From Demequinaceae bacterium (GTDB taxonomy: Bacteria; Actinomycetota; Actinomycetes; Actinomycetales; Demequinaceae), in the NCBI GenBank assembly GCA_024643505.1, contig JAHEMW010000006.1, positions 1 through 35,718 on the forward strand: 35,718 nucleotides of DNA, given 5' to 3'. The translations under genes and the position numbers were made by a program. Positions 1 to 2,273 of this stretch are shown piece by piece (positions within the stretch are counted from its first letter, which is position 1; each line of letters begins with the position of its first letter). The notes below the pieces were generated by a model. It worked only from the letters and a program-made list of their open reading frames with translations, was not told where the DNA came from and searched no databases.

Positions 1-1321
1 CGCCAGTTCCACCGGTGCCCGTGCCGCCAGTGCCCGTTCCGGAGCCGGAGCCGGAGCCAGTGTCGGAGCCGGTGCCATTGTCGGAGCCGGTGCCCGATCC
101 GCCAGTGCCGCCGCCGGTACCCGATCCGTCACCGTTGACACCAGTGCCGCCGCCGGTACCCGATCCGTCACCGTTGACACCAGTGCCGCCGCCGGTACCC
201 GATCCGTCACCGTTGACACCAGTGCCGCCGCCCGTGCCCGATCCGTCACCGTTGACACCAGTGCCGCTCGCGGGATCGGTGATTCCTGGTACATCCTGGC
301 CAAATGCGGCCCCGGCCGGGTCAAACAGACCGAAGTAGCTCGCGCCGCTGACAACCAACGCGAGGATTCCGACCGCGGCGGCGGCGGGAAGTGCAGCGCT
401 CGAGAACCCTGCCAGAGCGGCCGCGAGCCCAGTCCCGGCCGATCCGACGCTGGCCGTCCCCGCGGCTGCCGAACCGCCCGCAGCATTCTTTGGGCCGAAC
501 GCTCCGCCAACGGGAAGGCCGCCCTCGAGCGCGCCCATGCCTAGGACTCCGAGAACGAGGGGTGCGATGACGCCGCGCATTCCGCGGTTGACATCTTCGA
601 GTTCTACGACGAGCGCCGTGCAGCGTTCGCACTTCTTCACGTGTTCGTCAACGCGGGTGTGTTCGCGCTTGCTGAGTCCGCCGCGTACGTAGGCACCGAG
701 CTGCGTGTTCGCTTCGAGACAGTTGATGTCGTCCGACGTCCCCAGGTGCTGCTGCAGGTATGCCTGACGCAGGGCTTCGCGTGCGCGATACGCAAGGGCG
801 GCGACACCGTTCGCCGTCAGGCCTAGCAGGGGAGCGATGTCTTTCGGCTGCTTCTTCTCGACCTCGGTGTACCACAGCACCGCCTGCCACCGTTCGGGCA
901 GCGAGCGGAAAGCATCCGCGACCATTCCTTGCTCGAAGCCGGCGAGTGCGCCCTCATCGGATGCCGGCTCGAAACCGAGCGACGACTCGTACTGGCCCAT
1001 GTCGTCGCCGGGACGCGTGCGGTTGGCGCGGTTGATGACGTCCATACCGGTGCGGCGCACGATCGTAAACAGGTAGGCGCGGAACGCGAGATCCGGGCCG
1101 TCTCCACGCTGGAGAGCCCGCAAGACCCGTGAAAAGGACTCGGATACCACGTCGTCAACGTCAGAGACGGAGTTGGTGTACATCGACGCGACCTTGCGGG
1201 CAGCATCGACGTGACGCTCGTAGAGCACACCGAAGGCGGCCGAGTCGCCTGCGCGAACGCCTGCAATCAGCTCAGGATCGCTGGACGTTTCCGTCCATAG
1301 CGCGATCGCCTCGTGGCTCAT
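1..1321 (-). CDS. ECF-type sigma factor fused to zinc-finger, membrane segment and Gly-rich repeat tail (3' end outside window)
   Basis: An open frame of 440 codons starts at ATG 1321 and reaches the window edge without a stop. An AAGGGAGA ribosome site lies about 11 bases upstream. Residues about 30-110 resemble sigma region 2 (LYERHVDAARKVA, then DVDDVVSESFSRVL). Residues about 135-195 resemble sigma region 4 (SLPERWQAVLWYTEVEKK, then an HTH). Next comes a zinc-finger-like motif, C201 ... H227-x3-C231-x2-C234, as in ZAS-type anti-sigma factors. A hydrophobic stretch lies near 251-265 and a likely membrane helix at about 299-333. After that the chain is Gly/Thr/Ser/Asp-rich, with four 13-residue repeats, presumably outside the cell. 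Fused sigma plus anti-sigma-like C-terminal extensions are known in some actinobacterial ECF groups. That the tail tethers and restrains the sigma domain is inference. The total length is unknown. Confidence 0.85.
   Translation of the reverse strand, partial: MSHEAIALWTETSSDPELIAGVRAGDSAAFGVLYERHVDAARKVASMYTNSVSDVDDVVSESFSRVLRALQRGDGPDLAFRAYLFTIVRRTGMDVINRANRTRPGDDMGQYESSLGFEPASDEGALAGFEQGMVADAFRSLPERWQAVLWYTEVEKKQPKDIAPLLGLTANGVAALAYRAREALRQAYLQQHLGTSDDINCLEANTQLGAYVRGGLSKREHTRVDEHVKKCERCTALVVELEDVNRGMRGVIAPLVLGVLGMGALEGGLPVGGAFGPKNAAGGSAAAGTASVGSAGTGLAAALAGFSSAALPAAAAVGILALVVSGASYFGLFDPAGAAFGQDVPGITDPASGTGVNGDGSGTGGGTGVNGDGSGTGGGTGVNGDGSGTGGGTGVNGDGSGTGGGTGGSGTGSDNGTGSDTGSGSGSGTGTGGTGTGGTG
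105..260 (-). repeat. Four tandem 39-bp units inside the sigma-factor tail
   Basis: Units lie at 105-143, 144-182, 183-221 and 222-260. The first three are identical, and the fourth differs at two bases. Each encodes 13 residues, TGVNGDGSGTGGG in the minus-strand frame, so length changes keep the frame open. Shorter Gly/Ser/Thr repeats continue to the window edge. Identity at silent positions suggests recent expansion. Confidence 0.95.
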
Positions 1322-1499
1322 AGTGAGTGGGGTCTCCCTTGACTATTGGGTTCTTTCCATTGTCCAGGGGCCACATTGCGATTCTCAACAACCACGGTGC
1401 GGGATTGGTCACACGCCACGCGTGGGGGCAGAAACAAATTCTTCAAAAGAAATCCGACAAAGCGCGTCATAGTCGCGAACGTGACCCCTCTCATCGGGT

Positions 1500-2273
1500 A
1501 TGAGCATCGAAGTGAGCAGCCAGGGAGCCACCCCCACCGCAGTTCTGCTGCGCAAGTGGGAGACCGCAAGTGTCGACTCGGTATGGCGTCGTCCGGGTGA
1601 CTGGTACACGCCAGCAGCCGAGGCGCTCGTCGAGGCGCTTGAGTCCAAACTGGACACCGCACCCGCAGCCTTCCGACTCGGCCAGGCACGCGCTCTTGCC
1701 GGTGTCGGTATTACTGAAGCGATCGACGACATGGCGGTGTTGTTCCGCCAGGCCGGCTACCAATCCGCGCCCATCCGCTCCATTCGCGCCCTGTGCGAAG
1801 GCTGGACCGACGGCGACGCCGCTCCTGCTGTCTCCCCGGTCATGACTGACGCGGAGTCTGGGCTTGGCACCGCCGAGTACCTGGTTCAGCGGCTCGCGGA
1901 GGTCTACGGGGGCGCGCAGCGGATCGGCACGCATGTCTCGGAGACCCACGCTCTCGTGCTGGTTGACGTCGCGGTCAACGACACTGACCCGTGGCAGCGC
2001 ATCGCACGAAACGCCGCCGTCGGAAACGCTCTGCAGGATGCGTACGGTGAAGGCTTCCCGATGGCCCGCCTGTCGGACGGAATTTACGCCGTGCTCGTTG
2101 AGCGCGGTTTGGCACTCGGACACGGGATCGCGGAATTGCGCGATCACATCGCCCAGCGGGCGACCGAGATGCGCGTGGGTAACCTCATGCGCCAGCCCCC
2201 CAGGGTGTGGGTGGAGTCATTGCCTCACTCACACGCCTACGTGGCCGACCTCTTGGAGTCGGTCTACCGCTAG
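1500..2273 (+). CDS. Hypothetical protein with a degenerate GGDEF-like domain
   Basis: This 257-residue soluble protein has no signal peptide or membrane helix. Residues 1-110 are helical and unrecognised. Residues about 115-235 follow the GGDEF (diguanylate cyclase) pattern: ESGLGTAEYLVQRLAE resembles the family's LTGLPNRxxLxxRL start, ALVLVDVAV resembles the first metal-binding strand, and RLSDGIYAVLVE sits where RLGGDEFAVLL is expected. The signature is therefore SDGIY (residues 192-196) in place of GGDEF, and the metal aspartate is not evident, so cyclase activity is unlikely. It may bind a nucleotide or a protein partner. It is transcribed away from the fused sigma factor across a 178-bp gap. 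No good ribosome site precedes ATG 1500. A GTG in frame at 1512 is an alternative start. The domain call is my own alignment by eye. Confidence 0.7.
   Translation: MSIEVSSQGATPTAVLLRKWETASVDSVWRRPGDWYTPAAEALVEALESKLDTAPAAFRLGQARALAGVGITEAIDDMAVLFRQAGYQSAPIRSIRALCEGWTDGDAAPAVSPVMTDAESGLGTAEYLVQRLAEVYGGAQRIGTHVSETHALVLVDVAVNDTDPWQRIARNAAVGNALQDAYGEGFPMARLSDGIYAVLVERGLALGHGIAELRDHIAQRATEMRVGNLMRQPPRVWVESLPHSHAYVADLLESVYR

Follow-up and report, generated by a model that had tools for sequence, protein, structure and literature searches.

The window analysed here, a stretch of 35,718 nucleotides, comes from a Demequina metagenome-assembled genome (MAG) of 158 contigs and 86% completeness. At its beginning (positions 2-1321, minus strand) lies a gene of 440 codons with an ATG start, in which a sigma factor, a zinc finger, a membrane helix and a stalk follow one another. 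The 3' end of this gene is missing: the window edge is also the edge of contig C44, and the frame is still open there. Sigma region 2 occupies aa 33-101 (1019-1225, minus strand; Pfam PF04542 Sigma70_r2, E 2.2e-12) and region 4 occupies aa 134-184 (770-922, minus strand; Pfam PF08281 Sigma70_r4_2, E 2.6e-05). The region 4 match, with 24.2 bits, falls slightly under the Pfam cut-off of 25.7, and the NCBIfam model TIGR02937 (sigma70-ECF) spans aa 29-187 with 67 bits against a cut-off of 42.9 (E 1.4e-18). Regions 2 and 4 are present with no further sigma region, as in ECF sigma factors, and the fold matches of the sigma part are E. coli sigmaE and RNAP-bound ECF sigmas. The finger, a ZAS-like segment at aa 201-234 (620-721, minus strand; Pfam PF13490 zf-HC2, E 8e-08), has the ligands C201 and H227-x3-C231-x2-C234, all four invariant in an alignment of 13 rows with identity down to 38%. 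The window protein is an ECF sigma factor with a fused ZAS-type finger. We propose that this finger may hold the sigma domain inactive; the AF2 model of the sigma part plus finger is weak (pLDDT 70.1, pTM 0.41), and docking of the finger is not evident in it.

A main membrane helix is predicted at aa 306-324 (350-406, minus strand; mean Kyte-Doolittle 2.12, octanol -4.0), as the preliminary description had noted, and a weaker, conserved hydrophobic segment precedes it at aa 251-269 (515-571, minus strand; Kyte-Doolittle 1.82, octanol about 0). This weaker segment, absent from the preliminary description, bears on the topology. The first part of a stalk of Gly, Thr, Ser and Asp (2-325, minus strand) contains neither Lys nor Arg, and the 109 residues past the helix include 49 Gly and 3 Pro. 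Within it, TRF found four tandem units of 39 bp (13 aa), GTGVNGDGSGTGG, at aa 353-404 (110-265, minus strand; period 39, 4.3 copies, 98% matches), as well as a second array with a period of 18 bp and 2.7 copies (46-94, minus strand). Three of the 39-bp units, at 110-226, are identical at the DNA level, and the fourth carries two silent third-position differences; TRF and the DNA comparison thus agree with the at least four 13-residue repeats and the silent-site identity of three units described previously. Judged by codon frequencies in four genes of the window, two independent copies would match at every codon with p ~1e-6, and such improbable agreement leads us to regard the 39-bp units as recent tandem copies.

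To locate the missing end, the initial 1.7 kb of the window served as a query against the genome. Two further short matches were obtained, and each lies at the end of contig C106; the terminal 28 bases of this contig agree with the first 28 of the window at all but one position (window positions 1-26 are identical). On C106 the putative continuation of the sigma gene (L004:2069-3559, minus strand) comprises more repeat, a head of about 465 residues and the stop codon, so that extension past the contig edge, as initially recommended, did reach the end of the gene. The head was found once in the genome. Beyond it, C106 carries an MFS transporter gene and one for a DJ-1-like protein, which are found in 34/38 and 33/38 of the fetched relative loci, respectively; this gene order supports C106 as the likely continuation. 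Because the contig breaks inside the repeat, the copy number of repeats in the MAG is unreliable.

Nearest named matches of the sigma protein belong to Demequina, and the sigma-finger part was recovered in 36/36 same-genus relatives with 71-87% identity. In 33 of these 36 loci the gene forms a full uninterrupted frame of 870-1120 aa; the other three are one locus cut by a contig end and two with broken frames. Sigma, finger, helix, stalk and head are present in all 33 intact relatives (the head of L069 has masked bases), and their heads are 33-47% identical to that of the window organism. Together with the Pfam and NCBIfam domains, these loci bear out the single-chain reading of sigma factor, finger, helix and repeat tail in one frame, and no frameshift upstream of the repeats is shared by the relatives.

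Several irregular homologues deserve a comment. The sigma-gene frames of L089 (D. sediminis, the same genome as L070) and L090 (D. litorisediminis) are broken. We considered phase variation by a frameshift in the linker and rejected it, as the head is also split over two or three frames in both; such splitting points to sequence errors as the probable cause. L072 (G008) shows a frame break inside the sigma region. Finally, L304 (G190:C7) and L108 are Demequinaceae homologues of about 250 aa that end soon after the finger and have no helix, stalk or head.

Among the 33 relatives, the stalk varies from 118 to 279 aa (median 187), with a coefficient of variation in length of 0.20 against 0.05 for the head. 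Its composition is retained: G, S, T, D, N, P, A, E and Q make up 86-96% of the residues, Lys and Arg number 0-9 (median 1) and Asp and Glu 10-75. Gly is usually the most frequent residue, and Pro reaches 19-24% in 4/33 Demequina stalks. TRF detected in-frame tandem arrays in 30/33 stalks, every period being divisible by three, and most arrays have a unit of their own, such as GGGDN, GGTDN, DGGT or SG. In this comparison, which used one genome per species, the arrays differ even between species with 91-94% DNA identity in the sigma part. The repeats are therefore not fixed among relatives, and fast repeat turnover between species is supported. Overall, the composition and approximate length of the stalk are kept, while its sequence is replaced from species to species; a stalk of this kind is probably disordered.

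An AF2 model of the head of Demequina sp. NBRC 110052, built with 26 relatives, reached pLDDT 92.3 and pTM 0.89. Its residues 1-150 match Ig-like surface domains of integrin, complement and fibrillar-adhesin proteins (Z about 10, ~110-117 residues), among them the fibrillar-adhesin CLIPPER domain 9ifr (Z 9.9, 115 aligned residues, 3.1 A). Foldseek gave only weak global scores for the whole head (TM about 0.2), and our fold claim is limited to the first ~150 residues. Below the Pfam threshold, DUF11 appeared in the window organism's own head (E 0.95), and both DUF11 (E 0.032) and DUF3344 (E 0.0014) appeared in that of the relative L079; a PDB sequence search with the head as the query gave a single match at E 0.07, which was set aside. 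As modelled, the head would be a beta-sandwich, adhesin-like region of about 465 residues, Ig/DUF11-like first and DUF3344-like afterwards. A head profile also matched the C-termini of homologues from Cellulomonas, Actinotalea, Acrocarpospora and an Actinomycetes MAG, where the stalks differ, and did not match the tested homologues from Oerskovia, Cellulosimicrobium, Isoptericola, Nocardioides and Pseudonocardiaceae; consequently, this head is not general to the class. Other heads do occur: all three scanned proteins of family f37 carry NPCBM according to Pfam (E 9e-31 to 3e-27), and in L299 (family f38) three Ig stretches and a ricin-type lectin domain follow the finger. L301, of the same family as L299, is likewise a homologue with a different head. 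Overall, this kind of protein seems to be built on a single chassis to which different heads can be fitted.

A partner gene of 257 aa (1500-2273, plus strand) starts 178 bp from the sigma gene and runs in the opposite direction. A search of 248 genomes of the order returned 40 matches to the partner in 39 genomes (E<=1e-5), 39 of which are divergent and within 600 bp of a sigma homologue; the 40th is a piece of a split gene whose other piece adjoins the sigma gene. In these 248 genomes the partner thus never stands away from such a sigma gene. Neither Pfam nor NCBIfam assigns it to a family. Its second half is possibly GGDEF-like and degenerate: hhalign against GGDEF gave P 0.0011 with a weak probability of only 20.9%, and each of the three PDB profile matches at E<=1 is to a GGDEF protein, the best at E 0.033. 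Among the 15 of the 40 matches that make up the partner alignment A6, none has the GG[DE]EF active site; a Pfam scan of these 15 members found GGDEF_2 once (E 0.039) and, with a better score, the unrelated PilX once (E 0.0015), one example of unrelated families that equal or surpass GGDEF in single members; PF00990 did not match the partner.

Between the two genes, 24 aligned Demequina sequences share invariant blocks that read, towards the partner, GCGTCAT-N17-[CG]TCTCAT. In the window this candidate ECF-type promoter is GCGTCAT-N17-CTCTCAT (1464-1494, plus strand) and ends 5 bp before the partner ATG; we consider GCGTCAY-N17-[GC]TCTCAT a candidate leaderless promoter of ECF type. In the same alignment of 24 sequences (A4), a TGTGA block that never varies lies ahead of the sigma gene (1395-1413, minus strand), perhaps the site of some regulator, and promoter-like blocks were also seen before the sigma gene itself.

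Since the motif was derived from the upstream region of the partner, its presence there says little alone. We searched genomes with the pattern GCGTCATN{16,18}TCTCAT. The motif occurs in 40/41 Demequina genomes, with one to five sites in each; a control with the backward pattern gave no match in the 41 Demequina genomes and two in the 248 genomes of the order. Outside Demequina, 63 homologue loci were reduced to 56 tabulated ones by leaving out seven of Amycolatopsis, and 55 of these had upstream DNA. A divergent site with at most two mismatches in 13 positions and within 350 bp upstream of sigma is found in 36/55 of these loci, compared with 2/55 on the other strand, and for each of the 36 none of 60 shuffles reached the site score. 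Fourteen of the 19 loci without a site belong to Pseudonocardiaceae. Upstream regions of the NPCBM-type family f37 offered no match better than 4-5 mismatches in 6/6 loci, so the motif is no general feature of sigmas of this kind.

The backward control is imperfect, as a loose form of the motif also matched genomes without the sigma (22/165, next to 26/32 with a close orthologue and 10/51 with a distant homologue); we therefore relied on a stricter form and on the contrast between groups. Strict sites were found in 25/32 genomes of the order with a close orthologue (E<1e-75), in 7/51 with a distant homologue and in 3/165 with none; a Fisher test of close orthologue against none gave 3e-22, with kinship ignored. 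The remaining 7/32 close-orthologue genomes had no strict exact site. Within family f9, strict sites occur in 7/13 genomes with a close orthologue and in 0/5 without one. Of the 56 strict sites, 46 lie in the 32 genomes of two families, and for this reason the co-occurrence of motif and sigma is confounded with phylogeny. The comparison supports the promoter assignment, with kinship as a confounder.

What lies behind the motif elsewhere was assessed in 60 fetched regions, a subset of all sites, which hold 64 sites away from known sigma genes; classes were assigned by tblastn to one example each. With this procedure, 23 sites precede an LRV-repeat gene, nine BldC, six a LuxR-type HTH gene (all in family f9), five a NIT/HAMP/HATPase kinase and three an EAL protein, leaving 18 others. 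The latter, which fall in no recurrent class, include the partner itself (L274), a further EAL protein identified by Pfam (L262) several short secreted-looking proteins, and sites that are possibly due to chance. In the window genome, the three sites precede the partner, BldC (NF033787, E 3.8e-30) and a kinase. The distance from motif to match is narrow in each class (39-40 bp for EAL, 42-52 bp for BldC and 120-125 bp for the kinase), and the genes behind the motif vary between species. BldC, kinase and EAL genes in these positions suggest an output in development or c-di-GMP signalling. The small LRV-repeat gene, of the MFSENYS... type, is the one met at L188-L223, L269, L270 and L272. Short secreted-looking proteins stand behind the motif at L190, L204, L213, L221, L268 and L271; some of them start RRRVLxGAAW-like, and those scanned had no Pfam match.

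Such evidence induces us to favour, as a reading we hold to be somewhat more probable than its contraries, a membrane-anchored, wall-spanning one-component ECF sigma factor that is freed by intramembrane proteolysis and reads GCGTCAY-N17-[GC]TCTCAT promoters. Inside the cell, sigma2-sigma4 would be kept inactive by the fused ZAS-type finger beside the membrane. The helix would lead into an acidic, probably disordered stalk of Gly, Ser, Thr and Asp (in some cases also Pro), whose 120-280 residues or so would be enough to cross the actinobacterial wall, and which would end in the adhesin-like head at the cell surface. Binding by the head, or lost contact with the wall or a surface, might expose the protein to proteolysis, and a site-2 (M50) protease might then release the sigma domain. 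The genome has M50 proteases on C152 (E 5e-42) and C133; these are non-specific, being found in 14/14 control genomes as well. Once freed, the sigma would act on the leaderless divergent partner and, depending on the species, on LRV-repeat, BldC, NIT/HAMP kinase, EAL, LuxR-HTH and secreted-protein genes. Computation establishes the domain order, the presence of the head, the turnover of the stalk with its chemistry kept, the pairing with the partner and the conserved motif with the genes behind it; the topology, the disorder, the autoinhibition, the signal and the proteolysis of the window sigma, and its being the factor that reads the motif, are what we infer.

A tail spanning or touching the wall had already been put forward in the preliminary description. 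It is plausible by analogy, considering the length and composition of the stalk and the parallel with RsgI (as described in the available parts of PMC10202637 and PMC10128001), and the same holds for its sensing the wall; the repeats do not form the end of the protein but a stalk that carries the head. The anatomy given in that description is correct, and the head, the partner, the promoter and the gene set come in addition to it.

Several other readings have to be weighed against this scenario. The sensor might be a classical glycan sensor of ECF52 type, with a head that binds carbohydrate and a stalk that only serves as inert spacing; we deem this possible, though not likely. The succession of sigma, finger, helix, spacer and beta domain is that of SCO4117 as given in the available part of PMC5826349, and the homologues with NPCBM or with Ig and ricin-lectin heads fit it. 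Against it, Pfam detects no carbohydrate-binding family, NPCBM included, either in the window organism's own head or in that of L079, but just the sub-threshold DUF11 and DUF3344 matches. A sugar-binding head, NPCBM or other, was rejected for want of a family match in these two heads.

It is rather unlikely, in our opinion, that the stalk alone gauges the wall, as a disordered stalk does for RsgI of B. subtilis (a precedent taken from the accessible text of PMC10202637 and PMC10128001), the head being an anchor or cap. The maintenance of stalk chemistry and rough length through sequence replacement is what such a gauge would predict. However, none of the 33 intact Demequina orthologues lacks the head (it is partly masked in one), and it is met again, on other stalks, in Cellulomonas, Actinotalea, Acrocarpospora and an Actinomycetes MAG, which indicates that selection acts on the head itself.

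Another sigma factor or regulator might read the motif, while the window sigma has other targets, and to this we also assign a low probability. The co-occurrence does fall within related families, the partner's own promoter would be conserved in any case, and the motif is a candidate site. Nevertheless, all matches to the partner in the order stand next to such a sigma, one divergent motif position is kept in several families and, within f9, strict sites follow the close orthologue (7/13 against 0/5). We regard the window sigma as the probable reader of the motif.

It is tempting to go further and suppose a two-gene relay from the surface to c-di-GMP and development, in which the evolving stalk of a wall-spanning sigma would serve as a gauge through its length and charge and not through its sequence. 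The always divergent partner, possibly a degenerate GGDEF protein, might bind some nucleotide and in turn act back on the freed sigma, while BldC, EAL, kinase and LRV genes would be driven from one ECF promoter common to Demequinaceae, Cellulomonadaceae, Promicromonosporaceae and Nocardioidaceae. We offer this relay as a speculation that is doubtful as a whole.

Very unlikely, in turn, is a hairpin formed by the two hydrophobic segments (aa 251-269 and aa 306-324), which would leave stalk and head in the cytoplasm. DUF11 is otherwise a domain of surface proteins, and the fold of the head resembles surface adhesins; the 60 residues past the second segment hold 3-21 Asp/Glu against 0-3 Lys/Arg. 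An acidic tail and an adhesin-like head favour an outside position, and we place the head, presumably, outside the cell. In favour of the hairpin, the segment aa 251-269 is conserved, with a hydrophobicity that is borderline in each of the 34 sequences compared (Kyte-Doolittle 1.44-2.06), and one or two helices are allowed for the class in the available part of a review (PMC8999054). As for an assembly artefact that wrongly joined repeat and head to the sigma, the 158 contigs of the MAG and the break within the repeat would permit it, but its probability is negligible and it is ruled out for the architecture by the uninterrupted frames of 33/36 relatives, several on contigs of 2.9-3.1 Mb, by the single-copy head and by the flanking gene order of C106.

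Finally, we would like to compare the window system with those already described. ZAS anti-sigma factors are the class of RsiW, ChrR and RslA type; the window protein shares with them the H-x3-C-x2-C finger ahead of a membrane helix and differs in that its finger is fused to the sigma. SigI is not an ECF sigma, and in SigI/RsgI the anti-sigma and the sigma are separate proteins, whereas the window system is one chain with a ZAS finger. What SigI/RsgI of Bacilli and Clostridia would have in common with it is membrane-tied sigma control through an outer, partly disordered sensing region and, for the proposed release, S2P cleavage. The partner is weakly similar by profile to diguanylate cyclases (GGDEF) but lacks GG[DE]EF.

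As a single chain, the architecture is known already, from SCO4117 and ECF52 as well as from ECF48 and ECF53. According to the available part of PMC8999054, ECF48, ECF52 and ECF53 are sigmas with a fused finger and helices for which proteolytic release is expected, in accordance with the earlier remark that some actinobacterial ECF groups have C-terminal extensions. The likeness to ECF48 and ECF53 is by description only and consists in a C-terminal anti-sigma-like fusion, a finger and one or two helices (PMC8999054). With ECF52 and SCO4117 the window protein shares an ECF sigma, a zf-HC2 finger, a membrane segment, a low-complexity spacer and an outer beta domain in a single chain. SCO4117 of Streptomyces coelicolor has, in the accessible part of PMC5826349 (2018), a Pro-rich spacer and a carbohydrate-binding domain, and is called the first characterised ECF52 member; its authors leave the promoter motif open there. 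The stalk of the window protein is made of Gly, Thr, Ser and Asp instead of being Pro-rich, and its head is DUF11/DUF3344-like instead of NPCBM. We also considered the SCO4117 motif CSGY-N17-SRHA, as given in that text, as a match to the window motif and dismissed it as too loose for comparison. The window sigma-finger is 40-42% identical to the f37 homologues, which were taken as SCO4117-like by their NPCBM domain. In the sigma tree, f37 and Demequinaceae rows each group in a clade of their own (100/100 for both), that of f37 on a long branch; the forks that separate these clades are unsettled and subject to long-branch warnings.

The available parts of PMC10766802, PMC8103513 and PMC11256431 contain no closer match to the window system, and a literature search of titles and abstract openings, with most subscription papers outside it, found neither the partner, nor the promoter, nor a study of a Demequina sigma. 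Sigmas that combine their own anti-sigma, anchor and sensor in one chain have been predicted in Actinobacteria and little tested. The Demequina branch represents a concrete and inexpensive test case, with a short invariant promoter, a list of candidate targets and a partner. Its stalk, swapped by species with little change in chemistry or approximate length, amounts to a natural test of whether the bulk properties of a disordered region are enough for envelope sensing. Overall, what this branch adds to the known systems is the partner gene, the candidate leaderless promoter of ECF type and the presence of its motif before LRV, BldC, EAL, NIT-kinase and LuxR-HTH genes; compared with SCO4117 and its kin, the stalk, the head, the partner and the probable promoter seem to make up a new version of a plan that is already known.
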